A stretch of DNA of 64,000 nucleotides. Source: Thiocapsa sp. Its GTDB lineage: Bacteria > Pseudomonadota > Gammaproteobacteria > Chromatiales > Chromatiaceae. The position numbers and the translations under genes were made by a program. The notes beneath the pieces are model-generated. The model saw nothing but the letters and a program-made list of their open reading frames with translations, was not told the origin of the DNA and ran no database searches. The stretch spans positions 4,034,001 to 4,098,000 of the forward strand of contig NZ_CP073760.1 in NCBI RefSeq assembly GCF_018399035.1. Reading direction: 5' to 3'. This document shows, piece after piece, positions 11,702 through 64,000 of this stretch; position 1 is the stretch's first letter, and each line of letters opens with the position of its first letter.

Positions 11702-12150
11702 GTTGGAGCCATGGTTGGATCAGCGCCGGCTCCGCAGCGCCTCCACGACCCCATCGCTGCCGACCCCCCGCCGTTGCCGACACGAGTACGCTGCGTGATC
11801 GACGAGCTCCGTCGGGTCGTCGATCCAGGCGAGTTTCCGACCCCATCTATCCTGGCCGAACCATCTCTTCGACAGGGCCTTCGGTGCCTTCGCACGGCGC
11901 GGAATCAATGAAGTCAGCCCTGAAGAACCAGGGGCGACGCAAGACCACCGACAATAACGACAACGCCTAACAGACTAAAAGCCTTGTAATCCGTCACTTT
12001 ACCTCAATGGGCCAAAGGTCTTTTCTATGCCCGGGGCGTGCTGACCATCCCCGAGGACGCGGGATGCTTATCATGCCGTTCAATCCTCCTTGCAGTTGAG
12101 CAATGACGGGTGCGGTTCAACAAAAACAACGGAAGACCGGGCAATAGTCA
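11702..12150. other. Gap without a recognised gene
   Basis: About 450 bases follow the groEL terminator. A minus-strand open frame at 11720-11908 (62 codons) includes FGQDRWGRKLAWIDDPTELV, faintly like the C-terminus of a glyoxalase/VOC protein (DPxGN-x-FVD), but this is too weak to call. The stretch near 12110-12150 is loosely similar to that before the second diguanylate cyclase copy (18940-18972). I see no RNA gene. Confidence 0.5.
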
Positions 12151-13635
12151 CCCGCTGTGAGAGAGCCGCGCAAGCGGGAATCCGCTATAGTTGGGTCACT
12201 CACGCTCGGAGCCGCGATCACGACGGCCACTGCCGGTCCAAATAAACCGCAGCAGCCGGCGGCGCTCACACGGCCGTTTTGATGTCCCAGCACCCACCAA
12301 TCGTCGTCGATTCTTGCTCATCGCCCCAACCTTCCGAGGCCATACCCGCCGGCCTGTATCTGTTGCAGGTGGATGCCGACGGCCACCCCTCCTTCCGCTT
12401 CGTCACGGAACGGCTTCTCGCCATGCTCGACCTGCCCCGAGAGGTGGTTCTCGCCGACGCGCGAGACCGTGTTCCAGCGGGTGCACCCGGAGGATTATCC
12501 GGCGTTCCTGGCGCTGAATCAGCAGGTCTTCACCGCCCCGCGGCCTTTCTTGTGGGAGGGCCGGGTCGTGGTCCGAGGCGTGACCCGCTGGTGGCGCCTG
12601 GAGTCGTTGCCGCGCCCGCTCCAGGACGGGCGCATGCTCTGGGAAGGGGTTGCCATCGACATCACGGACGCCAAGGAATTGGAGGCCGCGCGGCGGGTTG
12701 GAGAGGCGCGCTTCGAGCGCCTGCTGCACTTTGCGCCGGTCCCCCTGGGCAATCTCGATCGGGTACACCGGACTCGCTTCTACAACGCGCTCTTCACCAA
12801 GACCTACGGCTACAGCGAGTCCGATCTGCCCGACGAGCAGCGCTGGTGGGAGCTGGCCTATCCAGACCTGGCGTACCGCCGTCAGATGCGCGGGCGCTGG
12901 GACGCCGCGCTCGCCGCGCTGGCCGCGGGGGATCCCAGCCAACTGCCGTTCGACGCGGAGGTGACCTGTAAGAACGGCAAGAGGCGGGCGGTCGAGATCC
13001 ACTACGCGGTGCTCGACGACGGCTTTCTCGGTGCCTTCGTCGATGTCACCGAACGGCGGCGTGCGCAGCAGCGTGAGCGCGCGGTGCAAGCGATCCTGCG
13101 CGACATCCTGACCGACCAACCATTGGCGGCCATTGCCGAGAAAATCGTCCGCGCCACCGAGTCAGCGGCGTCCGACGGCCTCTGCTCGCTGCTGCTGGTC
13201 GACGAGGAAAGCCGCCGGTTGCGCCTGCTCGCCGCGCCGAGCCTGCCGGCCTTCTACAACACGGTGATCGACGGCCTCGCCATCGGCGACGGACACGGCT
13301 CCTGCGGCACCGCTGCCGCGCGCGGCGAACGGGTGATCAGCGAGGACATCCTCGTGGATCCGGCCTGGGCGCCCTATCGGGAGCTTGCCGCCAGGGCCGG
13401 TCTGCGAACCTGCTGGTCGGAGCCGGTGCTGGCCAAGGATGGCGAGGTCCTCGCCACCTTTGCCCTCTATGCCGGGCAGCCACGGACCCCGCGTGCGCGG
13501 GAGATCGCCCAGATTGCGGGCGCCGCCAGCCTGGCCGGACTTGCGATCGAGCGCGCTCGCGCGCGCGAGGACCTGGCCCGGCGCAACGCCTGCGAGGAGG
13601 CGGTGCGCGACATCTCCCGGATGTTCCTGACCCCG
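12151..13635 (+). repeat. Direct repeat, copy 1 (5' part of the diguanylate cyclase locus)
   Basis: This stretch is nearly identical to 18973-20234 at an offset of about 6,821 bases, starting at CCCGCTGTGAGAGAGCC and ending just after the codons for DISRMF. The other copy lacks 216 bases that correspond to 13121-13336 here. Outside these limits the two sequences are unrelated. Confidence 0.95.
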
Positions 13636-17659: not shown

Positions 17660-17979
17660 GATCACGTTGACCTCATGCACTGCCGTTCTCCTTGGGCCTC
17701 AATCTAACGGCTGCCAATGACGTTTCGGTGACACTCGATGATTGGCTCCGCCACCCGGACCTCGCACCGCTTGATTCTGCTTCGCGGTTCTTTCGACGGT
17801 CTAACGAAGCCGGGCCGGGTCTCGCTCCTGCCGATGGGAACGCCGACCCCGAGGACGGGCTGATCGATGTGAGACGCCCGTGAACGATCGCGTTGTACTT
17901 CAAACTTGAAAACGTCAGCCCTTGCTGCGACCTTCACCGCGTATGGCGCCCCGCTCTACCGGCCTTGAGGCGATTCTCG

Positions 17980-18852: not shown

Positions 18853-18972
18853 GGGGCGCGGCGTTCAGGCTCGGTCGTTGTCAAGGAGAATGTTGCGTGC
18901 AGCAGTCGTCGCTCGGCGAGGCCCAATGGCGCGTCGCGGCTCAACAAAACAACGGGTGGCCCGGCATGGTTG

Positions 18973-20234
18973 CCCGCTGTGAGAGAGCCGCGCAAGCGGG
19001 AATCCGCTATAGTTGGGTCACTCACGCTCGGAGCCGCGATCACGACGGCCACTGCCGGTCCAATAAACCGCAGCAGCCGGCGGCGCTCACACGGCCGTTT
19101 TGATGTCCCAGCACCCACCAATCGTCGTCGATTCTTGCTCATCGCCCCAACCTTCCGAGGCCATACCCGCCGGCCTGTATCTGTTGCAGGTGGATGCCGA
19201 CGGCCACCCCTCCTTCCGCTTCGTCACGGAACGGCTTCTCGCCATGCTCGACCTGCCCCGAGAGGTGGTTCTCGCCGACGCGCGAACGGTGTTCCAGCGG
19301 GTGCACCCGGAGGATTATCCGGCGTTCCTGGCGCTGAATCAGCAGGTCTTCACCGCCCCGCGGCCTTTCTTGTGGGAGGGCCGGGTCGTGGTCCGAGGCG
19401 TGACCCGCTGGTGGCGCCTGGAGTCGTTGCCGCGCCCGCTCCAGGACGGGCGCATGCTCTGGGAAGGGGTTGCCATCGACATCACGGACGCCAAGGAATT
19501 GGAGGCCGCGCGGCGGGTTGGAGAGGCGCGCTTCGAGCGCCTGCTGCACTTTGCGCCGGTCCCCCTGGGCAATCTCGATCGGGTACACCGGACTCGCTTC
19601 TACAACGCGCTCTTCACCAAGACCTACGGCTACAGCGAGTCCGATCTGCCCGACGAGCAGCGCTGGTGGGAGCTGGCCTATCCAGACCTGGCGTACCGCC
19701 GTCAGATGCGCGGGCGCTGGGACGCCGCGCTCGCCGCGCTGGCCGCGGGGGATCCCAGCCAACTGCCGTTCGACGCGGAGGTGACCTGTAAGAACGGCAA
19801 GAGGCGGGCGGTCGAGATCCACTACGCGGTGCTCGACGACGGATTTCTCGGTGCCTTCGTCGATGTCACCGAACGGCGGCGTGCGCAGCGGCGTGAGCGC
19901 GCGGTGCAAGCGATCCTGCGCGACATCCTGAACGACCAACTCAGCGAGGACATCCTCGTGGATCCGGCCTGGGCGCCCTATCGGGAGCTTGCCGCCAGGG
20001 CCGGTCTGCGAACCTGCTGGTCGGAGCCGGTGCTGGCCAAGGATGGCGAGGTCCTCGCCACCTTTGCCCTCTATGCCGGGCAGCCACGGACCCCGCGTGC
20101 GCGGGAGATCGCCCAGATTGCGGGCGCCGCCAGCCTGGCCGGACTTGCGATCGAGCGCGCGCGCGCGCGAGGACCTGGCCCGGCGCAACGCCTGCGAGGA
20201 GGCGGTGCGCGACATCTCCCGGATGTTCTGACCC
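18973..20234 (+). repeat. Direct repeat, copy 2 (truncated diguanylate cyclase locus)
   Basis: Matches 12151-13635 with a 216-base deletion after 19940, a two-base loss in a GC run near 20160 and a one-base loss near 20227. Homology then ends abruptly at CTGACCCCG, about 70 bases before the helicase stop codon. Confidence 0.95.
19103..20228 (+). pseudogene. Diguanylate cyclase, copy 2: internal deletion, no GGDEF domain
   Basis: The frame starts cleanly at the ATG at 19103 and passes the site where copy 1 is shifted (VLADARTVFQRVHPEDY), so this copy preserves the ancestral N-terminus. After the second PAS region, ILNDQL joins directly to SEDILVDPAW, an in-frame loss of 72 codons that removes the first half of the GAF domain. 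A dinucleotide loss in the alternating GC run near 20160 then shifts the frame, and homology stops before the second GAF and GGDEF domains. It cannot make cyclic di-GMP. A truncated sensor of about 350 residues could still be produced. Confidence 0.9.
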
Positions 20235-20302
20235 CGATCACGCACCTGTCGATGCTGCACTTCTTCGGATACAGTCAACCGACGCCCGGTCCGATACCTC
20301 GT

Positions 20303-22984
20303 TCACGTGCTCCACCCGGTCATTAAAAACCGTTTCCGCACGTCCGTATCCAGCACCCGAGAGCAGCTTTCCCAATCGACCTTTTCGACCCGGTGATACC
20401 GCAGCTCGAACGGATGCTGCTTGGGAACCGCGTCGATGGTCCGCTTCGCCCGATCGATCTCACCGAGTGCAATGTCGATCCAGACATCCTCCAGGATGTC
20501 CGGGATCTGTCCGAACAGGTTGGCGATGTTCTCCAACCGCTCCGAAAGCAGCTCATGGACGCGATCCTCGACGGACCCGGCATAGCGCATGTTGTAGACA
20601 TCCACGGTGTCGCGGAGCTGACCGATGCGCTGGATGCGGCCTTTGCGCTGCTCCAGACGCGACGGATTCCAGGGCAGGTCCAGATTGATCAGGGTTCCGA
20701 GCCGCTGCAGATTGAGACCCTCGGAGGCCGCGTCGGTGCCGATCAGCACGCGGATCTCGCCGGTGCGCACACGCTCCTTGATCAGCTCACGCGCAGCACC
20801 CGTGAAGACGCCTTTGTGCATGATCCCCGAGCGCCGGGCGCCCGCGTAGATGCCGATCTCTTCCTCGGGGATCTCCGCGGTGAGCTGGTTGGCGAGCCAG
20901 ATGACCGAATCGAAATACTGGCTGAAGATGATGCAGCCGAGCTCGCGCCAGCCCTGCTCGAGCAGCAGCGAACGCACGATCCGGTATTTGGGGTCGCGTT
21001 CCTGGTTTGCCTCCAATGCCTTGAGGAATCGCTGCAAGAGGGCGCGCTCGGCCGACGTCAGGGTGCGTAACTGACTCAGCGTGTCCTCGTCGTCTTCATC
21101 CTCGTCCAGCGTGGCCCACTCGGTCAGGAGCTTCTCAACGGTGCGGCGTCCGGCCTCGATCGTGCTGCCGACACGCCGCAGCAGGAGGGTGCGAAAGAAA
21201 CCGGCGTTGGCCCGTTCGGCGAGCAGTCCGCAGAATGCTTCGGCAAGGTGATAGGCATCTTCGAGGAAGGGCGGCAAGGCGATGGCGTCCTCGTCGCGCT
21301 CGCCATGCAGTCGGACCTCGACCGGCTTCAGGAAGGGTTCGCCCGATTCCGGATCGATAGTGGTTTCCAGGTACTCGCGGGTCCGCAGCACGATATGCCG
21401 GATGAAGGGATTGGACTGCTCGAGGAAGCGTGGGAAGAGACGCCGGACCCGCGCGCGGTCCGGCGGGCGTAACCGATCGAAGCTGCCTCCGGTCGCCATG
21501 AGGTCGGCATCGGAGAGACGCAGCGCCCGGCGCAGCGCACTGTAGTCCGGTCCCTCGGCTGCGGGCGGCAGTGGGTTGCGCATCCAGGCCCACCGATCGG
21601 CATCCTCGGTCGGCGGCTCCTCGCGACCCAACAGCAGCCCCAAGGCATGGCGCGGTTGACGCCATGGGCTGCCGTAGCCGCCCAAGACCGCGTCGGACCC
21701 GCGCGCGAGTGCATCCAACAGGTCCCACGCCTCGATGGGATGGATCTGCACCGGTGTCGCGGTCGCCAGCAGCAGACTGCGCGTGCGTGGCGAGATGTCC
21801 CAGAGAAAGCGCAGCAGGTTATTCGGCTCGGCCGGATCGTATTCCTTGCCAGGCCCCAGGTTGCGCCGCCGCGCGCGGTGCGCCTCGTCGAGGATTACGC
21901 ACGCGTATCTGCCGTTGAGGAGCCAGTCCCGGATCTCCGAGCCCGCGACGATGAGGCCGGTGGAGACGATACCGACACGCCGCGGACACTTGCGGATGGA
22001 TTCCGGGCCGGCGCTCGGATACTCGATGCCGTTCTCGTCCACCCAGCCGCGCCCGTCCCAGACCGCCGAGGGCATGTCGAGCAGCGTGTTCAGCTCACCC
22101 TGCCACTGCCAGATGAGTGGCTTCGGCGCCAGGATCAACACCGGCTTGTCGCCGACCAGAGCCATGAGCTGGGCCGCCATGGCGAGTTGGATGGTCTTGC
22201 CGAGCCCGACCTGGTCCGCCAGGACAAAGCGCGCGCCGTGAGCGCCCCTATGCGCGTCGAAGGCGATCTTCACGAAGTGCTTCTGATGCTCCCAAAGCCC
22301 GACCTCCTTGCGATAGACCGGCGACTCGATCACGGCGGCCGCCGGATCGGGCTGGCCACGCCACTCGGCAAGGTCCGGAATGACCGAGCGCACCGCGAGC
22401 CGCTGGATATCCTGCACCACCGCATCGGCCAGCTCGACCGCAAAGGGCGAATGCCAGAGGCTGTCGAACTCCTCCCGCACCCAGGCCACCGCGTCCTCGG
22501 AGTCATCCTCCCACAGCAGCTCGTAGTTCAGACGCCAGGCCGTGAGCGACTCGTTGACGCTGCCGAGAAAGGCGGTGCGTCTCCCGTCCGCCAAGGTGAT
22601 CACGCCGGCCTTGCCGTGGATCAGTCCGAAGATCGCATCGGGAAGCACCCTGACCTGCAGCTTGCCGCTGGCGAGGAAGTCATAAAGACGCTGCAACCGG
22701 GGTTTCGCCGCGTCCGGCAGGCGCTCCGGCTGTGCATCGCACCACTCCCGACGCATCGCGGCCTGGGCGGCCTTCTTCGCCGTCTCGATGTCCTTCGGAG
22801 CGATGATCGAGTTGCAGACCAGGCGGACCGGGCCGGAGACGGACTCCAGCTCCTCGCCCGCGACCTCCATGATCGATGACGAGAAAAAGCCGGCGATGCG
22901 GTCGTAGCCCCGCGCGCCGCGCAGACGCTTTGCAAGAAAGCTGTGATCGAGCCGAATGCGGCGAGACGAGAAGCGGTTGATCAT
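20303..22984 (-). CDS. Phospholipase D-like/SNF2 helicase anti-phage protein, copy A
   Basis: 893 residues. The N-terminal third is a PLD-like nuclease domain (YDRIAGFFSSSIMEVAGEEL; HGK at 123-125 followed by GSVNES). Then comes a SNF2 helicase: Walker A ADQVGLGKT (256-264), DEAH at 366-369, LLATATPVQ, and the C-terminal half with IFSQYFDSV, GTDAASEGLNLQ and RKGRIQRIGQ. Proteins with this architecture occur in DISARM-related defence loci beside DUF499 and DUF1156 genes, as I recall. A DUF499 fragment lies 3.7 kb away. The predicted role is ATP-driven recognition or cutting of foreign DNA in the cytoplasm. The frame is intact. DUF433 lies 53 bases upstream on the same strand. Confidence 0.85.
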   Translation of the reverse strand: MINRFSSRRIRLDHSFLAKRLRGARGYDRIAGFFSSSIMEVAGEELESVSGPVRLVCNSIIAPKDIETAKKAAQAAMRREWCDAQPERLPDAAKPRLQRLYDFLASGKLQVRVLPDAIFGLIHGKAGVITLADGRRTAFLGSVNESLTAWRLNYELLWEDDSEDAVAWVREEFDSLWHSPFAVELADAVVQDIQRLAVRSVIPDLAEWRGQPDPAAAVIESPVYRKEVGLWEHQKHFVKIAFDAHRGAHGARFVLADQVGLGKTIQLAMAAQLMALVGDKPVLILAPKPLIWQWQGELNTLLDMPSAVWDGRGWVDENGIEYPSAGPESIRKCPRRVGIVSTGLIVAGSEIRDWLLNGRYACVILDEAHRARRRNLGPGKEYDPAEPNNLLRFLWDISPRTRSLLLATATPVQIHPIEAWDLLDALARGSDAVLGGYGSPWRQPRHALGLLLGREEPPTEDADRWAWMRNPLPPAAEGPDYSALRRALRLSDADLMATGGSFDRLRPPDRARVRRLFPRFLEQSNPFIRHIVLRTREYLETTIDPESGEPFLKPVEVRLHGERDEDAIALPPFLEDAYHLAEAFCGLLAERANAGFFRTLLLRRVGSTIEAGRRTVEKLLTEWATLDEDEDDEDTLSQLRTLTSAERALLQRFLKALEANQERDPKYRIVRSLLLEQGWRELGCIIFSQYFDSVIWLANQLTAEIPEEEIGIYAGARRSGIMHKGVFTGAARELIKERVRTGEIRVLIGTDAASEGLNLQRLGTLINLDLPWNPSRLEQRKGRIQRIGQLRDTVDVYNMRYAGSVEDRVHELLSERLENIANLFGQIPDILEDVWIDIALGEIDRAKRTIDAVPKQHPFELRYHRVEKVDWESCSRVLDTDVRKRFLMTGWST

Positions 22985-23037
22985 GGCCTCGGGTTAGCGC
23001 CGTTGCTGTCGCGGGACTCAACCAGAAGACGCGCCGT

Positions 23038-23262
23038 TCAGGCTAAGCGCGGAATGAGGTGGTCGGTCTGACGGGCGGCATCGTCCAGGGCCGCTGCGAT
23101 GTCCTCCGCCTCAAGGTAGGGATAGTCCTCCAGGATCTCCGACGGAGACGCCCCGGCGGCCAGCATACCGAGGATGTCCGACACGCGAATCCGCATGCCC
23201 CTGATACAGGGTCGGCCGCCGCAAACACTTGGGGCGATCGTGATTTTCGGCAGTGCCTTCAT
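23038..23262 (-). CDS. DUF433 antitoxin-like protein, copy A
   Basis: A 74-residue DUF433 protein: ITIAPSVCGGRPCIRGMRI, then DILGMLAAGASPSEILEDYPYLEAEDI, a winged-helix-like fold. DUF433 proteins usually pair with a PIN-like DUF5615 toxin as VapB-type antitoxins. No such toxin is next to it; the only downstream gene is the helicase. It may act as a transcriptional regulator of the helicase. Its start region lies head to head with the CopG-like gene. Confidence 0.85.
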   Translation of the reverse strand: MKALPKITIAPSVCGGRPCIRGMRIRVSDILGMLAAGASPSEILEDYPYLEAEDIAAALDDAARQTDHLIPRLA

Positions 23263-23333
23263 CGACTCTTCTCGGATGTGCAGGATTGGGGCGACATCAT
23301 GTCGTAGGATGCATCAAAAGGAGGTCGAGCACT

Positions 23334-23606
23334 ATGAGCGACAACAACAGTCTCAAGACGCTGCCCGCACTCACGAGCGACGAGGACGCGGAGCGATTCC
23401 TCGACGAAGCCGATCTGACCGAGTATGACCTGAGCGATTTCAAATCTGCCGGGTTCGAATTCGAGAAGAAGTCGGCGTGGGTGAACATATGCCTGCCGGG
23501 GCCACTCTTGGATGCGGTCAAGGCACGCGCGCAGGCTCGCGGCATGCCGTATCAGCATTTCATCCGCGAGGCGATCGAACGCGCGTTGGATCACCGGGAG
23601 TCTTGA
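23334..23606 (+). CDS. BrnA/CopG-type antitoxin-like protein, copy A
   Basis: 90 residues with a strong ribosome site (AAGGAGGT at 23318-23325) before the ATG at 23334. The C-terminal part, KKSAWVNICLPGPLLDAVKARA followed by MPYQHFIREAIERAL, is a ribbon-helix-helix domain as in BrnA/CopG antitoxins. No BrnT toxin is present upstream. It is transcribed divergently from DUF433 and the helicase and could bind the shared 70-base promoter region. Confidence 0.8.
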   Translation: MSDNNSLKTLPALTSDEDAERFLDEADLTEYDLSDFKSAGFEFEKKSAWVNICLPGPLLDAVKARAQARGMPYQHFIREAIERALDHRES

Positions 23607-23635
23607 ACAAGGCGCGCTCATTAACATCTTTCTAA

Positions 23636-23890
23636 TCAGGATCCCAGAAGTTCCTCCGGCGTAATGCCGACCGACTTAGCAATCTCTTGCATCTTCTCCA
23701 GGGCCTCCTTCGTCTGCCGCACCCGCCGTTGCGCGAGCTCCTGCTGGATCTTGGGCACCAGTGCTTCGAGTGCCTTGTCGGAGAGCGTGGAGAGGTCGAT
23801 CCCGCCCTGCTTGGAATCTGTAGCACTACCGGCATCGTTCACGTCGATGTCCTCTTTCTTGTGTCGTACGGTATCCTTTACTGCGGACAC
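23636..23890 (-). CDS. Small coiled-coil protein like an H-NS N-terminal domain
   Basis: 84 residues from a GTG at 23888-23890. After a polar N-terminus, ALEALVPKIQQELAQRRVRQ and TKEALEKMQEIAKSVG form a predicted helix pair, ending ITPEELLGS. This resembles the oligomerisation part of H-NS family proteins, but the DNA-binding AT-hook-like domain is absent. Truncated H-NS proteins of this kind can antagonise full H-NS. The gene is divergent from parD and shares an upstream palindrome. The resemblance is moderate. Confidence 0.5.
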   Translation of the reverse strand: MSAVKDTVRHKKEDIDVNDAGSATDSKQGGIDLSTLSDKALEALVPKIQQELAQRRVRQTKEALEKMQEIAKSVGITPEELLGS

Positions 23891-23922
23891 TCGCGCGGTG
23901 CGTTGCGTGTTTCAGGGTCTCA

Positions 23923-23943
23923 TGGTATGAATAAGTCATACCA
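23923..23943. promoter_or_regulatory. Palindromic operator TGGTATGA-N5-TCATACCA
   Basis: A perfect 8-bp inverted repeat with a five-base AT-rich spacer lies between the divergent H-NS-like gene and parD (54 bases from its ATG). Placement and symmetry suit a ParD-type ribbon-helix-helix autorepressor. Confidence 0.65.
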
Positions 23944-23996
23944 CGCAGACGCCGCCTAAACATCGCCAGAACGTCCTTACCCATCACGTACTCGTC

Positions 23997-24263
23997 ATGC
24001 CTACCGTCGAAAAGATCACCATCGCACTCACCAAAGAGATCGCCGACAATGTCCGCGCTGCGGTCGACGCCGGCGATTATGCCTCCACGAGCGAGGTCAT
24101 TCGCGAGGCTCTGCGCGACTGGCAACTCAAGCGCACGTCGCAACAGGAGCAGGTCGAACACCTACGCCGTTTGTGGCAGGCGGGGCTCGCTAGCGGTTCG
24201 GCCGGCCGGCTCGATATGGCCGAAATCAAACGCGAGGCACGCAAGGTCAAAGCCTCGCGCTGA
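23997..24263 (+). CDS. parD: ParD-type antitoxin
   Basis: 88 residues beginning MPTVEKITIALTKEIADNVRAAV, the ribbon-helix-helix of type II antitoxins, with YASTSEVIREALRDWQ matching the ParD second helix. The C-terminal half would wrap and neutralise the toxin. The parE gene starts 23 bases after the stop. Probably autoregulated through the palindrome at 23923-23943. Confidence 0.9.
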   Translation: MPTVEKITIALTKEIADNVRAAVDAGDYASTSEVIREALRDWQLKRTSQQEQVEHLRRLWQAGLASGSAGRLDMAEIKREARKVKASR

Positions 24264-24286
24264 ACCGCTCGCAAGATTGCACAGCC

Positions 24287-24595
24287 ATGCACGATGTCAC
24301 CATCAGCAACCAGGCACGAGAGGATCTCATCGCTATTTGGGAGTACGTCGCCGACAACAACCCGTCCGCCGCCGATCGCCTGCTCGACATGCTCGATGCG
24401 CGGATCGACCGCCTTGCCGATCATCCCTTCCTCGGCCCTGCGCGACCGGACATCGCCCGCGACTTCCGCTATCTCGTCTGCGACAACTACCTCATCCTCT
24501 ACCGAGCTCTCGCCGATGCGGTCGAGATCGTCCGTGTCCTCCACGGCGCGCGAAACCTAACGGCGATTTTCACGGACATCGACCCCCTGCCCTGA
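24287..24595 (+). CDS. parE: ParE/RelE-family toxin
   Basis: 102 residues with the ParE pattern ISNQAREDLIAIWEYVADNNP, a middle LLDMLDARIDRLADHPFLGPARPD, and YLVCDNYLILYRAL...VRVLHGARNL. ParE toxins poison DNA gyrase; RelE relatives cleave mRNA. It sits directly after parD in a two-gene operon. The frame is complete. Confidence 0.9.
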   Translation: MHDVTISNQAREDLIAIWEYVADNNPSAADRLLDMLDARIDRLADHPFLGPARPDIARDFRYLVCDNYLILYRALADAVEIVRVLHGARNLTAIFTDIDPLP

Positions 24596-24653
24596 CCAAG
24601 CCATCAGAATCCCTCGCCGGCGAAGACTCGGACGCACCTTTCGCGCCACCTGA

Positions 24654-25560
24654 TTAGCAAGGAACGTCAGCCACGCGCCGGATCCACGATTCGGGGCGGG
24701 GACCGCAAGCCGTCGCTGTCACCAGCAGGCGGATCGGCAGGGCGCGCAGATCGAAGCGGCGATTAAACCGATAGGCGATCGTGCCGAGGTAGCGCTCGGC
24801 GTATTCTCCGAAATCGAAGCTGTGGTATGCCCCGCTGAAGCGGGTCTTGAGATTGCCCAGGACGGTGTTGATCCAGTGGAACATGGGCAACTCCTTGGGT
24901 TTGCGCGTCCCGACGACGGTCGGCTGGTGGGTGCAGCCGATGTCGGTGACGCCGGCGAAGCAGGCCAGGCCATCGGAGACGACGGTGCTGGTGGGGGCGA
25001 GGTTCGCGCCCGCCCACTGAGCGATGGCGGCGCGGGTGAAGCCGGACACTGGAGTGAACTTGGCGCGCAGGGGATGACCTTGGTCATTGAGAGAGACCGC
25101 GCCGATGAAGGGAACTTTGTTCTCCGAGCCCCGTCCCGCGGTGCCGCCGACCAGTTCGCCGCCGAGATAGGCGTCGTCGACCTGCACGGTTCCGCACAGC
25201 ACGGTGGCGGCCTCGCGCTCGACCATCGCCTGCATCAGCTTGTGATGAATCAGCCAGGCGGTTGGATAGCCGACCCCGAGATCGCGCTTCAGCGCCAGGG
25301 CCGACAGGCCGGTCTTGGCCTCACCGATGAGATCAATGGCCAGGAACCAGACGGTCAGTCTCAGTTTGGTAGCCTCGAACAGCGTCCCGGCGATCAGCGA
25401 GGTCTGGTGATGGCAGGCATTGCACTGGAAGGTCTTGCGGGGGCTGCCGTGCAGCACGCAGTTCGCCGCCCCGCCGCAGCTCGGACAGCGAAACCCGTCC
25501 GGCCAGCGCATGCGCTCCAGCGCCGCCACGCACTGGGCCTCGGTGCCGAACTGTTGAAAA
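24654..25560 (-). pseudogene. IS1595-family (ISXO2-type) transposase, 5' end missing
   Basis: The frame has a C-terminal stop at 24654 and runs back through SCGGAANCVLHGSPRKTFQCNACHHQTS (zinc-ribbon), VQVDDAYLGGE and MFHWINTVLGNLKTRFSGAYHSF, as in ISXO2-type enzymes of the IS1595 family. The first internal start is a GTG at 25529, but the readable homology (FQQFGTEAQCVAALE) goes up to the terminal repeat of the neighbouring element at 25561, which replaces the true start. About ten residues are lost. I did not find its own terminal repeats. Confidence 0.85.
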
Positions 25561-26690
25561 GGCTCTTTATGTGTTTCGGACAGTTAGCCCAGGAGCGCCG
25601 CCAGCAGTGAGTTCAACAGGCCCTTGCCTCGGACACGAGCATTGTGGACGAACTGAAAGAAGCTCGGGTACACGGGCAAGCTCTCCTGTGAAATGCCGCG
25701 GTGGGGCCGCAACCACGACCGCAGCAACGACCAGACGCCTTCCATGGTGTTGACGTGGACCTCGTGGAAACCGTCTCCGTCATCGTCGCGCGCATACTCG
25801 CCGCGACTGTGACAGACGCTGTGATGATCGTAGCCCCACGCCGGCAAGCGGGCGTAGATGTCGTATTCGTCGGTGAAGAACCGCGTTCCCGGGGCCACGG
25901 CGCCGCGGATCAGCGGATCAGCGGCTCGATCGTCGTCTGTTGGACGTTCTCCGGCATCCACATCACCACCTCGCCACCGCGCTGGATGATCCCGAAAATC
26001 GGCGGCTTCTCCTTCGCCAGGGTTCCCCGCCCGCGGGCTCCCTTCAGGCGGCGACGCCGCCCTTTGCGTTGTTTTTTTTTACCGCTTCCGGATGTCCCTT
26101 GTGACCGGCGACGACGTACACCTCGTCGGCCTCCACTTCGCCCGTGAGGAGCGGCGGCGGCTGCTTCGCCTCGATGCCCTCGCGCAACTGCCGGGTCATG
26201 CGTTGGGCGTCGTCCTTGTTCAGGTCCAGCTCAATGCCGATCTGCCGGTTGGACAGGTTCAATCCCATGAAGTACAAACACAGCACCCAGGTGCGCAGCG
26301 GCTGATGGTGTCGCGCGAAAATCGTCTCGCTCAGATCGTCGAACCAGCGTCCGCAGTCCTTGCAGAGGTATTTTCGGCGCTCCGGCTGCGTGGTGTCCCG
26401 GCCCTGCTTGGTGACGGCTGCCGAGTGGCAATGCGCACAGCGCACTCCGTCCGGCCAGCGCAAAGCACGGATGGTGTCGTAGCACTTCGCATCGTCGATC
26501 AGGTTCTGTATGTTCAACATCATGCAAACATCCGCTCGGTCGGGGCCTCGAAACGCTGCGGATCCTACACGAACAGGCCCCGTGGCGGCCAACCCCGCAT
26601 GCGGTACCTGTCTTCTTCACTCTCTTCGCGGGCACGTGCCGCGCTTTGCTTAGCCCTCTGCCGGGACCTGTCCGAAACACATAAAGAGCC
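25561..26690 (-). mobile_element. IS1595-like insertion sequence, 1,130 bp
   Basis: Perfect 23-bp terminal inverted repeats lie at 25561-25583 and 26668-26690 (inner ends CTGTCCGAAACACATAAAGA). Between them is a minus-strand transposase split by frameshifts. The eight flanking bases differ on the two sides (GTTGAAAA and ACGCGCCA), so there is no target-site duplication. This element cuts off the transposase on its left and the DUF499 gene on its right. Confidence 0.93.
25584..26523 (-). pseudogene. IS1595-family transposase in three frames
   Basis: The first frame starts at 26520-26523 (MMLNIQNLID), carries a zinc-ribbon (CAHCHSAAVTKQG, YLCKDCGRWFDDLS) and the first catalytic block VEADEVYVVAGHKG, and stops at 26044 after a nine-A run (26072-26080). 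Reading one extra base there opens PPIFGIIQRGGEVVMWMPEN. A tandem GCTGATCC duplication near 25912-25927 then shifts to the last frame, FFTDEYDIYARL to GVWSLLRSWLRPHRGIS. The A-run could be a programmed slip site, but the eight-base duplication breaks the protein. Confidence 0.85.
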
Positions 26691-28142: not shown

Positions 28143-29405
28143 ATGCGACAATCCGGTAGGCTCGGCGATGCCCCGCAGGCCGAGACGCCGACTCGGGCCG
28201 CCGGCCTTGCGCGTCTGGCGTCCTTCGTCCCGTACGCGGCGGTCTATGCCCGCGAGCGCAATCGGGTCGTCCCGCCGCATGATCGGGTCTCGCGGCTCTC
28301 GCCTTACTTACGGCATCGTCTGATCCTGGAGCGCGAGGCGGTCGCCGCGGTTCTGGACGCCCATCCGCGGGATGCCGTCGACAAGTTTGTTTCCGAGGTG
28401 CTGTGGCGGAACTACTGGAAAGGCTGGCTCGAGCACCGCCCGCACGTCTGGGACGCCTATCTGGACCAGCTCCGGCGCGACCGCGACGGACTCGCGGGGA
28501 CGGCGTCGATCGGCTATGCCGAGGTGATCGCGGGCCGGAGCGGGATCGCTTGTTTCGATGCCTGGGCCCGGGAGCTGACCGAGACCGGCTATCTGCACAA
28601 TCATGCCCGCATGTGGTTCGCGAGCATCTGGATCTTCACGTTGCGTCTGCCCTGGGCACTCGGTGCGGCCTTCTTCCTGCGTCATCTGCTGGACGGTGAT
28701 CCAGCCTCGAACACACTCTCGTGGCGCTGGGTCGCGGGGCTCCACACGCGCGGCAAGCACTATCTGGCGCGGGCCGAGAACATCGCCCGCTACACCGACG
28801 GGCGCTTCGACCCCAAGGGCGAGCTCGACGAGCAGGCATTGCCCCTGACCGAGCCGCCACTCGATCTCACGCCGCGTGTGCTCCCCGCGTTGGTCGAGCT
28901 GAACACGGAACTTCCGAGCGGGCTGCTGTTGACGCCGGAGGATCTCGCCCCGGAGGTCTCGCACCTGTCGAAGCTCGGATTTCGAGGTGTGGCCGGGGGC
29001 TGGGACGAGACGGTCGGGGAGGACCTCGACCTGGCACCTCCGGTCGTCGACTTCTCGCGGGTTGCGATTGCCGATGCCCTGTCTCGGGCCGAGGCCCATT
29101 TCGCGGCGCCGTTAAAGTCCCTGGACAAGACCGAATGGCAGGCCGATGCCGAGGCATGGGCGCGCGGCCTTGGGGTGCGCCAAGTCGTCACGCTCGAAAC
29201 GCCGGTCGGCCGATGGCGTGAGCGTCTCGAGCAGCTTGACGGGCGACTCGCCCGGCACGGCATCGCGCTCGTCCGCGCCCGCCGGACCTGGGACAGCAGT
29301 CTTTGGCCCGGCGCGACCCGTGGCTTTTTCCCCTTCCGCGAGCAGGCCCGCCGCCAAGCCCGACTCGAAGGTTTTACGCGCATCGCTCAGCCTCAACCCG
29401 GATGA
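28143..29405 (+). CDS. Photolyase-related FAD-binding protein without an N-terminal antenna domain
   Basis: 420 residues. The start is the ATG at 28143 with GGAG six bases before it. Residues about 40-235 are the photolyase/cryptochrome FAD-binding helical domain: FVSEVLWRNYWKGWLEHRP, GIACFDAWARELTETGYLHNHARMW and TLSWRWVAGLHTRGKHYLAR. No antenna domain precedes it. The C-terminal region has an alpha/beta look (PPVVDFSRVAIADALSRA, VRQVVTLETPVGRWRERLEQL) and ends with SSLWPGATRGFFPFRE. It overlaps a downstream photolyase start by ATGA. Function is unproved: repair or light sensing. Confidence 0.85.
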   Translation: MRQSGRLGDAPQAETPTRAAGLARLASFVPYAAVYARERNRVVPPHDRVSRLSPYLRHRLILEREAVAAVLDAHPRDAVDKFVSEVLWRNYWKGWLEHRPHVWDAYLDQLRRDRDGLAGTASIGYAEVIAGRSGIACFDAWARELTETGYLHNHARMWFASIWIFTLRLPWALGAAFFLRHLLDGDPASNTLSWRWVAGLHTRGKHYLARAENIARYTDGRFDPKGELDEQALPLTEPPLDLTPRVLPALVELNTELPSGLLLTPEDLAPEVSHLSKLGFRGVAGGWDETVGEDLDLAPPVVDFSRVAIADALSRAEAHFAAPLKSLDKTEWQADAEAWARGLGVRQVVTLETPVGRWRERLEQLDGRLARHGIALVRARRTWDSSLWPGATRGFFPFREQARRQARLEGFTRIAQPQPG

Positions 29406-29572
29406 AACCCATGCAACTTGTCTGGTTCAAGCGCGACCTCCGGGTCTACGACCACGCCGCACTCGCCGAGGCCGCACGGCGCGGCCCCGTCCTGCCGCTC
29501 TATATCGCCGAGCCCGGATACTGGTCCCAACCGGATGCCTCCGGTCGGCACTGGGCCTTCATCGCGGAGTGT
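29290..29572 (+). repeat. 283-bp direct repeat, left copy
   Basis: Nearly identical to 34759-35041 at an offset of 5,469 bases. It covers the end of the FAD-protein gene and the first 57 codons of a photolyase. Only a few single-base differences are visible. Confidence 0.95.
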
Positions 29573-34540: not shown

Positions 34541-34874
34541 ATCCGGGTTGAAAAGCGCCCGGCCTCATCCATCTCGAAGGCTGCGACCAACACCGAGAGA
34601 TCGATGCGACGATCTTCGATGCGACGAGCCGGCTGGTCCGGCGACACCCCGAAGGCCGAGACGTCGACTTCGGGGCCGGCGGTGCGCGTTTGGCGTCCTT
34701 CGTCCCGCGGGCGGCCGTACGTGCCCGCGTATCATGCGCGTCCCGGCTCGCCGAACCCGGGACAGCAGTCTTTGGCCCGGCGCGACCCGTGGCTTTTTCC
34801 CCTTCCGCGAGCAGGCCCGCCGCCAAGCCCGACTCGAAGGTTTTACGCGCATCGCTCAGCCTCAACCCGGATGA
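34541..34874 (+). pseudogene. FAD-binding photolyase-like protein, copy 2, with about 1 kb deleted
   Basis: The first 190 bases (34541-34735) are a diverged copy of 28072-28262, including the start ATGCGA (34604) and GCGTCCTTCGTCCCG. They join close to 34759, equivalent to 29290, so about 1 kb coding for the whole FAD-binding domain is gone and the two remnants are in different frames. The last codons, SSLWPGATRGFFPFRE to PQPG, overlap the photolyase start by ATGA as in copy 1. Confidence 0.88.
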
Positions 34875-35041
34875 AACCCATGCAACTTGTCTGGTTCAAG
34901 CGCGACATCCGGGTCTACGACCACGCCGCACTCGCCGAGGCCGCACGGCACGGCCCAGTCCTGCCGATCTATATCGCCGAGCCCGGATACTGGTCCCAAC
35001 CGGATGCCTCCGGTCGGCACTGGGCCTTCATCGCGGAGTGT
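34759..35041 (+). repeat. 283-bp direct repeat, right copy
   Basis: Partner of 29290-29572. Homology ends after the codons for WAFIAEC; from there this copy continues as a normal photolyase while the left copy does not. Confidence 0.95.
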
Positions 35042-46574: not shown

Positions 46575-47486
46575 ATGGACATCGAGGCACTGAACGCCGA
46601 GCACGGCATCGACGGCATCCTGCGTTTCACCGAAGGCCGCGGCGGCCTGACCATGATCGAGATCGCCAACGCGCAGGCGACGGCCCTGATCTCGCCCTAC
46701 GCCGGACAGGTGTTGGCCTATCGGCCGGCCGATGCGGCGGATGACCTGCTCTTCGTCGGCGAACGGGCCTATTTCGCCGAAGGCAAGGCGATCAAGGGCG
46801 GCATTCCGATCTGCTGGCCCTGGTTCGGCGCGGATCCCGAGGCGAAGGGCCGATCCGCCCACGGGTTCGTGCGGGCCTGGCCCTGGCAGGTGCTCGCAAC
46901 CGAATCGCTTGCGGACGGCGCCACGCGGGTGCAGCTCGGGATCGCCGACGCCGCCGAGACCCGCGCCATCTGGCCCCAATATTTCAATCTCCTCGTCGAT
47001 ATCCATGTCGGCGCGACCCTATCGGTCGCCTTGAGCACCCTGAATGCCGGCGATCGGCCCTTCAGCATCACTCAAGGTCTGCACACCTATTTCAAGGTCG
47101 GCGACGCGAGCCGGGTTCGGGTCACGGGTCTCGACGGGTGCAGCTACATCGACAAGGCCGCCGACGGCAAGGATGCCGTGATACGCCAAGAGGGACAGGT
47201 GGCATTCGAGCGCGAGGTCAATCGTATCTACGAGGATGTGCCCTCGGTCCTGACCATCGTCGACCCGACCCTGGATCGGCGCATCCGCATCGAATCCGAG
47301 CACAGCCGAACGGCCGTGCTCTGGAACCCCTGGGTCGAGACGGCGAAGGCGATGGACGACCTCGACGATCAGGATTACCGGCGCTTTGTCTGCGTCGAGA
47401 CGGTCAACGCCGCTTCGGAGGTGATCGAGATCCAGCCCGCCGAGACCTATCGTCTCGCGGCGCGCTATGCCATCGAGCCGCTCTGA
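46575..47486 (+). CDS. D-hexose-6-phosphate mutarotase (YeaD-like)
   Basis: 303 residues of the aldose-1-epimerase fold: LISPYAGQVLAYRP, IKGGIPICWPWFGA, SAHGFVRAWPWQV, THGL-equivalent ITQGLHTYFKVGDAS with its catalytic histidine, and WNPWVETAKAMDDL. It interconverts the alpha and beta forms of glucose-6-phosphate. The ATG at 46575 follows GGAGAATC. glnE starts 10 bases after the stop. Confidence 0.93.
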   Translation: MDIEALNAEHGIDGILRFTEGRGGLTMIEIANAQATALISPYAGQVLAYRPADAADDLLFVGERAYFAEGKAIKGGIPICWPWFGADPEAKGRSAHGFVRAWPWQVLATESLADGATRVQLGIADAAETRAIWPQYFNLLVDIHVGATLSVALSTLNAGDRPFSITQGLHTYFKVGDASRVRVTGLDGCSYIDKAADGKDAVIRQEGQVAFEREVNRIYEDVPSVLTIVDPTLDRRIRIESEHSRTAVLWNPWVETAKAMDDLDDQDYRRFVCVETVNAASEVIEIQPAETYRLAARYAIEPL

Positions 47487-47496
47487 TCGAGCCCTC

Positions 47497-50361
47497 ATGG
47501 ATCATTTTCGCAATCTCGACCCGGCGACCGAGGCCCATTGGCAGACCTGGCGCGACTGGGCCGCAGAGCAGGGCGTCGAGGTCCCGGACGCACCGGCCTT
47601 CGCCGAGGCGCGGGCGCGGGTCTGGGAGGCCAGCGACTATGTGGCCGTCTCGGTCGCCCGTCATCCGGAGGTCTTGGCCGACCTGATCGCAAGCGGCGAG
47701 CTCGAGCAGCCCCGGGACCCCGACGTTCTGGCTCGCGGTTTCGAGGCCGCGCTTGCGTCGGTCACGGACGAGCCCGGTCTGCACCAAGCCCTGCGTCGTT
47801 TTCGCCGGCGCGAGATGGTCCGCATCATCTGGCGCGACATCGCCGGTTGGGCCGAGCTTTCGGAGACACTCGAACATCTCACCGCTCTGGCCGACCTCTG
47901 CATCCAGGGCGCTCTGGATCGCCTCCACGCCTGGACCTGCGCCGAGCTCGGCACGCCGCGCGACGCAACGGGTCGTGCCCTGGAAATGGCCGTGTTGGGC
48001 ATGGGCAAGCTCGGTGCCCGCGAGCTCAACCTCAGCTCGGACATCGACCTCATCTTTGCCTTTGCCGCCAACGGCGAGACCGAAGGTGGTCCCCGCAAGC
48101 TCGCCAACGCGCAGTTCTTCACCAAACTCGGCCAACGCTTGGCGCAGGCGCTGGGCAGCCAGACGGTCGACGGCTTTGTCTTTCGGGTCGATACGCGTCT
48201 GCGTCCCTTCGGCGAGTCCGGTCCGCTCGCCATGAGCTTCAACGCCTTGGAGGACTACTACCAGACGCAAGCGCGGGAATGGGAACGCTATGCCATGATC
48301 AAGGCACGCGTCGTGGCCGGCGACCCGGACGACGCGCGCGAGCTGCTGGCGATGCTGCGTCCCTTCGTCTATCGGCGTTATCTCGATTTCGGTGCCATCG
48401 AGTCCCTGCGCGATCTGAAGCGGATGATCGCCAAAGAGCTGTATCGCCGCGGCATGGACGCCAACATCAAGCTGGGGCCGGGCGGCATCCGCGAGATCGA
48501 GTTCATCGGTCAGGCGTTCCAGCTCATCCGCGGCGGTCATGACGCGGATCTGCAGATCCGTCCGATTCGCGAGGTGCTGGCACTCCTGGCGCAGAAGCAG
48601 TTGATGCCCGAGTCAGCCGTGCAGGGGCTGGACGACGCCTACTGTTTTCTGCGTTTGGTCGAAAACCGCATCCAGGCGTATCGCGACAAGCAGACCCACC
48701 TGCTGCCGGCCGACGAGCCGGGTCGGGCACGTCTGGCGCGTTCGATGGGGTTTGCCGACTGGCCGACCTTCGAGACGGTCCTGGACGCGCATCGTCGCCA
48801 TGTTCAGGGCCAGTTCGACGAGGTGTTCGCCGCGCCCGAGACGGAAGAGGTGCCGCATGAGCTGGATTCGGTCGCGCTCTGGCACGGCGAGGGCGATGCG
48901 GCCCATGAGGTCTCGGCATTGAGCGAGGCGGGCTTTGCCGAGCCCGAGGCGATCCAGTCTCGGTTGATCCGGTTTCGCGATGCGATCGCGCGCAAGGGGC
49001 TGAGTCGGCGCGGTCACGATCGCATGGAGCGGCTGATGCCGATGGTCTTGCGCGAGAGCGCCGCGAGCGAGCAGCCCGACATCGCCCTCGAGCGCGTGCT
49101 CAAGGTGCTCGAGGCCGTCGCGCGCAGGACGTCCTATCTGGCAATGCTGAGCGAGCACCCGGTGATCTTGGCGCAGCTCGCGCGCCTGGCGAGCATGAGC
49201 CCCTGGTTCACCGATCGGATCGCGCGTCATCCGTTGCTCTTGGACGAGATGATCGACACGCGTCGACTCTATGCCCCTTTGCGGCGGGCGGATCTGGAGG
49301 CCGAGCTCGATGCGCTCCTGCTGCACGTCGACGCGGATGACTTGGAGCAGCAGATGGAGCGTCTGCGCCAGTTCGCGCAAGGCAACATGCTGCGTGTTGC
49401 GGCGGCCGATCTGACCGAGGTCATCCCGCTCATGGTGGTGAGCGATTTTCTGACCGAGATCGCCGAGGTATCGATCCGTCGTGTGTTGCGTTTGGCGTTC
49501 GATCATCTCGCGCAGCGGCACGGCCGCCCGACCGAGATCATCGGGGAGGAGAGCGGTTTTCTCGTGCTGGGCTACGGCAAGCTCGGCGGGATCGAGCTGG
49601 GCTACGGGTCGGATCTGGATCTCGTCTTCATTCACGGCACCGAGTCGCAAACCGCGATGACCGACGGGGCGAAGGAGATCAGCAACGAGCAGTTCTTCAT
49701 GCGTCTCGGCCAACGCCTCATCCATTTGATGACCACCCAAACCCCCTCGGGCGTCCTCTACGAGATCGACATGCGTCTGCGCCCGGACGGGAATCGCGGG
49801 TTGCTGGTGCGCTCGTTCGCGGCCTTCGACGCCTATCAGTCGAACGATGCTTGGACCTGGGAGCATCAGGCCCTGATCCGCGCCCGCCCGGTCGCCGGCG
49901 ATCCGCAGTTGGCTGCCCGTTTCGGCGTGCTGCGGCGCGCGATCATCTGCCGCGAGCGCGAGTCCGAGCAGCTGCGCAAGGACGTGCGTGAGATGCGCGC
50001 GAAGATGCGCGCGAATCTCGACAAGAGCGGCGGCGGTCGTTTCGATCTCAAGCAAGGCCCGGGCGGTATTGCGGATATCGAGTTTATGGTTCAATACGCG
50101 GTCTTACGCTGGGCGTCGGCGCATCCGGCGCTGGCCGACTGGACGGACAATATCCGCCTGCTCGAAACACTCGGACGGCTCGATTTGCTGCCCGGGCGAG
50201 CGGCTGAAGACCTGACTGCCGCTTACAAGACGCTGCGCGCGGCCTATCACCGCAGCGCCCTGCAGGAGCAGCCCAAGACGGTCGCGGACGCGGATCTGCT
50301 GCCCGAGCGCGAGCGGGTCCAGTCCTTGTGGCACGCCTTGATGGACGAGCCTGCGTCCTGA
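47497..50361 (+). CDS. glnE: Glutamine synthetase adenylyltransferase/deadenylase
   Basis: 954 residues, matching the usual 946. Two nucleotidyltransferase domains are evident: LGMGKLGARELNLSSDIDLIF in the first half and GYGKLGGIELGYGSDLDLVF in the second, each followed by RLRPFGESGPL or MRLRPDGNRGLLV. It adds and removes AMP on glutamine synthetase according to PII status. The ATG at 47497 was chosen because it begins MDHFRNLDP close to the mutarotase stop; an upstream in-frame start would overlap that gene. Confidence 0.97.
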   Translation: MDHFRNLDPATEAHWQTWRDWAAEQGVEVPDAPAFAEARARVWEASDYVAVSVARHPEVLADLIASGELEQPRDPDVLARGFEAALASVTDEPGLHQALRRFRRREMVRIIWRDIAGWAELSETLEHLTALADLCIQGALDRLHAWTCAELGTPRDATGRALEMAVLGMGKLGARELNLSSDIDLIFAFAANGETEGGPRKLANAQFFTKLGQRLAQALGSQTVDGFVFRVDTRLRPFGESGPLAMSFNALEDYYQTQAREWERYAMIKARVVAGDPDDARELLAMLRPFVYRRYLDFGAIESLRDLKRMIAKELYRRGMDANIKLGPGGIREIEFIGQAFQLIRGGHDADLQIRPIREVLALLAQKQLMPESAVQGLDDAYCFLRLVENRIQAYRDKQTHLLPADEPGRARLARSMGFADWPTFETVLDAHRRHVQGQFDEVFAAPETEEVPHELDSVALWHGEGDAAHEVSALSEAGFAEPEAIQSRLIRFRDAIARKGLSRRGHDRMERLMPMVLRESAASEQPDIALERVLKVLEAVARRTSYLAMLSEHPVILAQLARLASMSPWFTDRIARHPLLLDEMIDTRRLYAPLRRADLEAELDALLLHVDADDLEQQMERLRQFAQGNMLRVAAADLTEVIPLMVVSDFLTEIAEVSIRRVLRLAFDHLAQRHGRPTEIIGEESGFLVLGYGKLGGIELGYGSDLDLVFIHGTESQTAMTDGAKEISNEQFFMRLGQRLIHLMTTQTPSGVLYEIDMRLRPDGNRGLLVRSFAAFDAYQSNDAWTWEHQALIRARPVAGDPQLAARFGVLRRAIICRERESEQLRKDVREMRAKMRANLDKSGGGRFDLKQGPGGIADIEFMVQYAVLRWASAHPALADWTDNIRLLETLGRLDLLPGRAAEDLTAAYKTLRAAYHRSALQEQPKTVADADLLPERERVQSLWHALMDEPAS

Positions 50362-51614: not shown

Positions 51615-51809
51615 ATGTCCAACGCCGCCGTCGAGACGCCGAGCGAGCATGCGCTGATCGAAGTCAGCCGCAAGGATCTGCCGCTGTCCTGTCCCCTGCC
51701 GAGTGCACCTGTGTGGAACATGCACCCACGGGTCTATCTGCCGATCGAAGACGAACCCAACCATGAGGCGACCTGTCCCTATTGCGGGGCGCGTTATCGG
51801 CTTGTTTGA
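51615..51809 (+). CDS. Zinc-finger CHCC-domain protein
   Basis: 64 residues ending [28 protein letters not shown], the zf-CHCC pattern in which one cysteine, one histidine and the CPYC pair bind zinc. The mitochondrial relative is a small subunit of respiratory complex I. The ATG at 51615 has GGAG nine bases upstream; an ATG at 51600 is also in frame. In many gammaproteobacteria it follows ilvE, as here. Confidence 0.9.
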
Positions 51810-51828
51810 AACGGCGTTCAGCGGGGTT

Positions 51829-51856
51829 CGGGGTTCGGGGTTCAGGGTTCAGGATC
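51829..51856. repeat. GGGTTCG/GGGTTCA heptamer repeat
   Basis: Four tandem GGGTTC(G/A) heptamers lie in the gap upstream of pyrC. A simple sequence repeat with no evident role. Confidence 0.7.
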
Positions 51857-51898
51857 CTGGTTAAGGGGCACGCTGCGCCATATCCGGATACGGTTGAC

Positions 51899-52942
51899 AT
51901 GACTGAAGGTCACAGTATTTGCATCACCCGGCCGGATGACTGGCATCTGCATCTGCGTGATGGCGAGGTCCTGGCCGATGCGCTGGCCCATACTGCGCGC
52001 TGCTTTGCTCGGGCGATCGTCATGCCGAATCTGCGGCCCCCGGTCGTGGATACGGCTCGGGCATTGGCTTACCGTGCGCGCATCCTGGATGCGCTGCCGC
52101 CCGGCAGCGATTTTCAGCCCTTGATGACGCTCTATCTCACGGACGCGACGAGCCCCGCTGAGATCGGCACGGCCAAGGCGAGCGGTCAGGTCTTTGGCTG
52201 CAAGCTCTATCCGGCCGGTGCGACCACCAACTCGGAGAACGGGGTCACGGACCTGCTCGGGCGCTATCCGGTCTTCGAGGCGATGCAGCGCGCCGGTCTG
52301 CCGCTCCTGGTGCACGGCGAGGTCACGGACGATCAGGTCGACATCTTCGACCGCGAGCAGCGCTTCATCGAGGAGCGTTTGGAGCCGATCGTCCGTGCAT
52401 TTCCGGTCCTCAAGGTCGTCTTCGAGCATGTGACGACCGCCGAGGCGGTCGATTTCGTGCGCGACGGGCCGCCGACCCTGGCCGCGACCATCACGCCACA
52501 CCACCTGCTCTACAACCGCAACGCCATGCTGGCCGGCGGCATTCGCCCGCATCTCTACTGCCTGCCGATCCTCAAGCGTGAGCGTCATCGGCTCGCGCTG
52601 GTCTGCGCCGCGACCGGCGGTCATCCGCGGTTCTTTCTCGGCACCGACAGCGCACCGCACGCCCTCGAGGCTAAGGAGACCGCCTGCGGCTGTGCCGGGG
52701 CCTTCAGCGCGCACGCCGCCATCGAGCTCTATGCCGAGGTGTTCGAGCAGGCGGGTGCCTTGGAACATCTGGAGGGATTCGCGAGTCACCAGGGTGCGGA
52801 TTTCTACGGTCTGCCCCGCAACACCGGGACCATTCGGCTGAACCGCGAGCCCTGGACCGTTCCGGCGTCTTATCCCTTCGGACCCGGGCGGGTCGTGCCG
52901 CTGCGTGCCGGTGAAGCCGTCGCCTGGCGTCTGGTGGCTTGA
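51899..52942 (+). CDS. pyrC: Dihydroorotase
   Basis: 347 residues, the length of the E. coli class II enzyme. All metal ligands are at the E. coli positions: H16 and H18 (DWHLHLRDG), the carboxylated K102 ([14 protein letters not shown]), H139, H177 and D250 ([10 protein letters not shown]). It closes the dihydroorotate ring in pyrimidine synthesis. The ATG at 51899 begins [14 protein letters not shown]. Confidence 0.97.
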
Positions 52943-59690: not shown

Positions 59691-59867
59691 ACTGTCGGAA
59701 CCTCCGGCCTCTCGCACGCAGAGGCGTTCCCGCGACCGCGTCGTCTCCCGAAAGTTTCGCATCTCGCGCTCGGGCACCGCAGCCACGGGTTGAGATACCC
59801 GATCGCGGGCCAACATTCCGGGTGACCGTCGACCACTGCAGAATTCAACCTTCGAGGAGGCTTGACC

Positions 59868-60449
<582 letters not shown>

Positions 60450-63347: not shown

Positions 63348-63400
63348 GGCCTCGGGTTAGCGCCGTTGCTGTCGCGGGACTCAACCAGAAGACGCGCCGT

Positions 63401-63625: not shown

Positions 63626-63696
63626 CGACTCTTCTCGGATGTGCAGGATTGGGGCGACATCATGTCGTAGGATGCATCAAAAGGAGGTCGAGCACT

Positions 63697-63969: not shown

Positions 63970-64000
63970 ACAAGGCGCGCTCATTAACATCTTTCTAATC

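Follow-up and report, generated by a model that had tools for sequence, protein, structure and literature searches.

Two near-identical genes for a helicase of the PLD(HKD)-Snf2 type lie within the stretch of DNA analysed here, a window of 64,000 nucleotides comprising positions 4034001-4098000 of the single 5,726,338-base contig (NZ_CP073760.1) of the 5.73 Mb genome of Thiocapsa sp. (Table 1). Both 893-codon frames are open, and the copies differ in 8 amino acids; at the DNA level 24 sense codons are affected, as is the stop codon. An earlier note on this DNA had described two intact copies of an anti-phage-type PLD/SNF2 helicase, about 40 kb apart, in the same orientation and with few amino acid changes, and this description was confirmed. 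Copy 1 matched the NCBIfam model NF042964 (phospholipase D-like domain-containing anti-phage protein) with 1279.6 bits over 891 residues (cut-off 1100) and the PADLOC model PLD_Helicase along its whole length, with no notable difference from either; copy 1 was used for these two scans, and copy 2 differs from it by 8 residues. In Pfam the same four domains, including PLDc_2, SNF2-rel and Helicase_C, were found in both copies, and a Tudor domain was matched in neither. The patterns HGK...GSVN, GLGKT, DEAH and QRKGRIQRIGQ, which we take to be the relevant motifs, were all present, and none of the 8 differences lies inside them, the motifs being intact in both copies. Judged by its sequence, the gene is the HKD-nuclease/Snf2-helicase gene of Type-2 DUF499-centred BREX-related (BR) systems, a family that is already known.

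The helicase genes are part of a longer repeat in the same orientation with an offset of 40,363 bp. When the window was compared with itself, positions 20311-23637 paired with 60674-64000 at 99.3% identity (BLAST E = 0), a length and identity that exclude a chance origin. Coordinates beyond 64000 are given in window numbering continued past the window end (position 7923 of locus L009 is 65923). In a comparison over 118 kb, positions 20311-25565 were aligned with 60674-65928 without gaps and with 27 mismatches. As the last of these mismatches already falls on the start of an inserted element, the true first block (block 1) has a length of 5,250 bp, again gapless, with 26 mismatches. A second block (block 2) of 1,103 bp is 98.3% identical, with 18 mismatches and 1 gap. 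The repeat, for which at least 3.3 kb had been claimed, is thus considerably longer. The search for a third copy that the earlier note had suggested yielded no near-identical one in the whole single-contig genome; the next full-length helicase homologue (4428371-4431094) is 44% identical. Among the genes that had been placed between the copies, glnE (GlnE domains, 47425-50361) and sodB were recovered, the latter by an Fe-SOD C-terminal domain (60132-60434, the sole match in the genome) in frame of the open reading frame (ORF) 59862-60449, while pyrC was recognized at the family level only, as a fitting amidohydrolase (51767-52942). With direct repeats of 5.25 kb, deletion or amplification of the intervening DNA is plausible.

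At the copy 2 locus, the genes for DUF499, DUF3780, a DUF1156 methylase and the helicase follow each other on the same strand in the order that is canonical for Type-2 BR systems. The HKD nuclease is located N-terminal to the Snf2 helicase without a Tudor domain, the DUF499 AAA+ ATPase was matched by the PADLOC model DUF499 with 679 bits (profile positions 1-1020 of 1022) and by Fn3_assoc in Pfam, and DUF3780 is encoded by a standalone gene (PF12635, 179.4 bits, cut-off 27). An intact N6-methylase was not found at this locus, since the DUF1156_MTase matches fall in two frames, with the break at what is presumably methylase motif I. In all five relatives compared (L012, L013, L042, L066 and L067) the two halves share one frame. 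The locus is furthermore interrupted by two insertion sequences (IS), IS607 and IS1595. The copy 2 methylase gene was also observed to be longer than those of the relatives, with an extra open stretch containing palindromic repeats; a made-up palindromic pattern resembling this insertion had no match in the window, which is uninformative as the insertion lies outside the window.

In PMC12839542, Type-2 BR systems are described to which the copy 2 locus is alike in the DUF499 ATPase with Fn3-type hits, the standalone DUF3780, the DUF1156-family methylase, the HKD-Snf2 helicase and the gene order, and from which it differs by the frameshifted methylase and the inserted IS607 and IS1595; at copy 1, DUF3780, the methylase and the greater part of DUF499 are absent. 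The authors of that paper propose the HKD-Snf2 protein as effector and the methylase as self-marker; on this model, the DUF499 ATPase of an intact system would direct the HKD-nuclease/Snf2-helicase to unmethylated DNA, with self DNA being marked by the DUF1156 methylase. A trio of helicase, methylase and ATPase is likewise found in the Hma system (HmaA/B/C; PMC8565338). However, all three proteins match the Hma models more weakly, with scores far under those of the PLD_Helicase, DUF1156_MTase and DUF499 models, and in the passages considered Hma is described as three genes, with DUF3780 not among them. PMC12111858 deals with a different protein. No literature was found on gene conversion or segmental duplication of paralogs in anti-phage defense islands, subscription papers and some preprints being outside the scope of the search.

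At copy 1, only the helicase and a DUF499 fragment (profile positions 1-93 of 1022) are left of the Type-2 BR set of ATPase, DUF3780, methylase and helicase. The earlier description of the helicase as a duplicated unit overstates the case, as it is one part of a four-gene system of which the rest is missing at copy 1 and the methylase is frameshifted at copy 2. With an orphan helicase at one locus and a broken methylase at the other, neither is expected to work as a full system. The larger neighbours of copy 1 are broken, namely the truncated DUF499, the truncated IS1595-A transposase and a frameshifted gene that we assume, from its sequence, to be Uma2, although the small DUF433, CopG and ParD/ParE genes are open and identical in both copies. 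Between the two blocks, the place of 9,326 bp that copy 2 has between 65923 and 75250 is occupied by a defective IS1595-type element (element B), whose transposase is split over two ORFs (zinc ribbon, 26044-26592; DDE part, 25584-25961) and whose 23-bp inverted repeats are perfect while the 8-bp flanks differ. This arrangement in the place of the lost 9.3 kb would be expected if two elements of this type had recombined, or if DNA next to the element had been deleted. A transposition of the entire block by IS1595-A was considered and rejected, because IS1595-A is internal to the copied stretch, whose ends do not coincide with those of the element.

The sites of both copies were compared with 10 other genomes of the genus (G001-G010), in which presence or absence of the helicase was judged among the matches listed. 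In G005 the Uma2 gene, which forms the end of block 2, begins 105 bases after the sodB ORF (to 60449), apparently an empty site at the location of copy 2. In G002 and G004 the same flank of hydantoinase genes and sodB is followed by broken helicase orthologues in pieces of 90-97% identity; the G002 assembly is a draft in 390 contigs, and the contig concerned starts at the helicase remnant. These two are the only genus orthologues of more than 90% identity among the matches listed. Since the sodB flank is shared by G002, G004 and G005, copy 2 occupies a site that is shared within the genus, and this site, bounded by sodB and Uma2, appears to be the ancestral one. Copy 1 is located in a variable stretch with flanks at 11,726 and 28,017. 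In 8 of the 10 genomes (G001-G005, G007, G008 and G010, with the regions of G001, G004 and G010 mapped) both flanks are on one contig at a distance of 956-8,908 bases, and among the matches listed there is no helicase between them. The right flank was matched at only 69% in G005 and was not matched in G006 and G009.

The differences between the copies are distributed unevenly. Along block 1, 8 mismatches were counted in 30 bp, followed by 1 in 343, 12 in 280, 2 in 3,960 and 3 in 637 bp, and the longest identical run between mismatches (2,555 bases) was reached in 0 of 20,000 shuffles; this clustering indicates recombination. Synonymous differences within the helicase gene are confined to codons 673-767 (11) and 881-893 (7), and elsewhere (codons 1-672 and 768-880) none was found at about 589 sites (95% upper bound 0.005), with three non-synonymous codon differences (206, 207 and 811) outside both tracts. 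The very recent copying that the earlier note had offered as one possibility is supported by this absence. The comparison of non-synonymous (dN) and synonymous (dS) divergence that it had also proposed gave 0.0045 and 0.027 for the whole gene, which looks like constraint. Owing to the confinement of the synonymous differences to two tracts, however, the ratio is a product of older alleles and is no measure of the time elapsed since copying, and it was rejected as evidence of selection. With no synonymous change outside the two tracts there was little time for decay, and the open frames may be regarded as a by-product of recency.

Outgroups were used to polarise the differences as derived in copy 1 or copy 2. 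In the 3′ region of the helicase gene (13 sites, 20553-20963), 9 differences are derived in copy 2, two of them by G002 alone because of a gap in G004, 1 in copy 1 and 3 are undecided, and in block 2 the corresponding numbers are 8, 2 and 1, with 8 further differences without outgroup. Together, 17 of 20 are derived in copy 2 (p = 0.0026). Addition of the interior pair (1 in each copy) and of the IS (2 in copy 2, 1 in copy 1, with a further copy of the IS in the genome as the reference) results in 20 of 25 (p = 0.004), and inclusion of the last 30 bp of the helicase gene (0 in copy 2, 2 in copy 1, 6 undecided) in 20 of 27 (p = 0.019). As linked sites were counted as independent, these p values are underestimates in case a tract arrived in one event. 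The 3′ end of copy 1 resembles the allele of G004 (FLM) and that of copy 2 the allele of G002 (FLT). The third paralogue of the genome was rejected as donor of the diverged tract, as it is only 75% identical there, and no donor of the diverged tracts was found.

The duplication, the broken neighbours, the synteny and the mosaic divergence are direct observations, and recombination would be the simplest account of the mosaic differences. Probably, part of the Type-2 BR island at about 60.67-76.35 kb was copied into the neighbouring variable site at about 20.3-27.8 kb, either recently or with a recent re-homogenisation through recombination. The source would have been the island in its damaged state, and copy 1 would then have lost about 9.3 kb with the methylase, DUF3780 and most of DUF499 at the IS1595-type element, while keeping the helicase, a few accessory genes and the start of DUF499. 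Either a recent copy was followed by the import of short foreign tracts into copy 2, or older copies were homogenised, and the two open frames would be a by-product of recency in both cases. A multi-gene, restriction-like defence island would here be seen decaying and being copied piecemeal between neighbouring variable sites.

Several points weigh against this account. The empty copy-2 site is supported by one genome, G005. The scores of DUF499 (815.8 vs 1200) and DUF3780 (174.7 vs 200) are below the NCBIfam cut-offs, and the methylase frameshift, seen in the assembly only, is either a true mutation or a sequencing error. Both decidable differences among the 8 in the last 30 bp of the helicase gene are derived in copy 1, whose end is thus another allele, so that a plain one-step copy of copy 2 is insufficient. 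A divergence of 1.7% in block 2 as compared to 0.05% in the interior of block 1 (2 of 3,960) does not fit a single event with a single clock.

The strongest objection to a plain copy is the unlike end of copy 1, which favours some homogenisation. It is quite possible, although we lean slightly the other way, that recent ectopic gene conversion homogenised older duplicates, or two alleles acquired separately, over most of block 1, and that the 280-bp tract, block 2 and the unlike 3′ end were left unconverted. This narrower version would be in agreement with the patchy divergence of block 1, the 1.7% in block 2 and the resemblance of the 3′ ends to the G004 and G002 alleles, but at most of the decidable sites it is copy 2 that has the derived state, for which short imports into copy 2 following a recent copy would account equally well, and the lack of a donor also counts against it.

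That selection keeps both helicases, for dosage, as stand-alone effectors or with copy 1 serving a third Type-2 BR system of the same genome, is unlikely. The intact frames and scanned motifs, the whole-gene dN and dS values and the presence of a third system with every gene open would be consistent with it, yet the synonymous differences are restricted to two short tracts, both listed orthologues above 90% and the larger neighbours of copy 1 are broken, and the third system owns its helicase. The suggestion that the open frames were retained by selection received no positive support, and near-identical intact copies alone are a poor ground for inferring selection. Slightly less probable still is an assembly artefact, in which a single copy was duplicated or real differences were averaged out within the 5.2 kb repeat; such consensus homogenisation would also speak against recent copying, and the interior nearly without differences next to a more divergent 1.1 kb block 2 would fit it. 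However, flanks and internal structure differ (element B and the loss of 9.3 kb), private differences are scattered, and 1 mismatch in the 343 bp beside the 30-bp left end followed by 12 in the next 280 bp is the reverse of an edge effect. Least probable of all is that the HKD-helicase is independent of its own methylase and ATPase and works either as a stand-alone nuclease present in duplicate or as a second effector for the third system, with the toxin-antitoxin genes travelling along as a unit; should the orphan effector be active, one would ask whether BR helicases need their methylase at all.

The third locus (4418328-4431100) encodes DUF499, a HEC-01A-like ATPase, DUF3780, a methylase and a helicase, with every frame open, and its helicase is about 44% identical to the duplicated one. 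It is a complete Type-2 BR system distinct from the duplicated one, and it may supply this type of defence. In a contig scan at least 7 relatives were found, of which L015-L018 (fragments or weak) and L014 (short, 6,190 bases) were left out of the gene-order comparison. The same BR gene order is present in L012, L013, the third locus (L042/L049), L067 and three plasmid records, from Thermomicrobium roseum, Desulfosarcina sp. BuS5 (DUF499 split in two annotated genes and an ATP-binding protein preceding the helicase) and Deinococcus psychrotolerans (additional genes between). The best three plasmid relatives of the helicase are 56-59% identical. Duplication of Type-2 BR systems is not unique to this genome, as G010 also has two sets (L066 and L067; 94-98% identical in five aligned pieces), one on the main contig and the other on a second contig of 221 kb, where the compared stretch ends inside DUF499.

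Table 1. Features of the two helicase loci in (continued) window numbering.
Feature	Position	Strand	Remarks
PLD(HKD)-Snf2 helicase, copy 1	20303-22984	-	893 aa; Pfam, PADLOC and NCBIfam matches, motif scan
PLD(HKD)-Snf2 helicase, copy 2	60666-63347	-	893 aa; 8 aa differences from copy 1
Block 1, copy 1 (helicase, DUF433, CopG antitoxin, ParD/ParE, IS1595-A)	20311-25560		matches 60674-65923
Block 1, copy 2, part in window	60674-64000		extends to 65923
DUF433 gene	23038-23262	-	upstream of helicase copy 1; PF04255
CopG/BrnA-like antitoxin gene	23337-23606	+	start codon chosen by hand; PF12441 (scanned as 23253-23606)
ParD-ParE type toxin-antitoxin pair	23997-24595 (23997-24263, 24287-24595)	+	TIGR02606, PF05016
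IS1595-A transposase, copy 1	24654-25560	-	cut off; PF12762 and PF12760 on copy-2 protein
Element B, defective IS1595-type	25561-26690	-	1,130 bp; 23-bp inverted repeats, unlike 8-bp flanks
Block 2, copy 1 (DUF499 5′ fragment, frameshifted Uma2-like gene)	26691-27793		matches 75250-76351 (past window end)
IS1595-A transposase, copy 2	65017-65973 (L009:7017-7973)	same as helicase	318 aa
DUF1156 methylase	66094-69407 (L009:8094-11407)	same as helicase	two frames
DUF3780 gene	69404-70069	same as helicase	
IS607 transposase and TnpB-like gene	70334-72378 (L009:12334-14378)	same as helicase	between DUF3780 and DUF499
DUF499 ATPase	72451-75522	same as helicase	profile match

The CopG/BrnA-like antitoxin matched the NCBIfam model BrnA weakly (22.2 bits, cut-off 60). 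The ParD-ParE stretch (23854-24681) has a counterpart of 97.5% identity in G010 (L043), where the helicase is absent, and ParD-ParE may therefore move separately. Repeats of about 195 bp were found near two BR loci (L009:18629-18823; L042:11369-11561 and 17680-17873), with identities of 95-99% in one orientation and 86-90% in the other. A PAS/GAF/GGDEF gene is directly repeated (12101-13635 and 18924-20236, 98-99%), and its truncated second copy stops 66 bp before helicase copy 1. Finally, a 306-bp direct repeat (29267-29572 and 34736-35041, 96.7%) brackets an insert of 5.2 kb, carrying IS66 and a sulfotransferase gene, in a photolyase region that is contiguous in G001.

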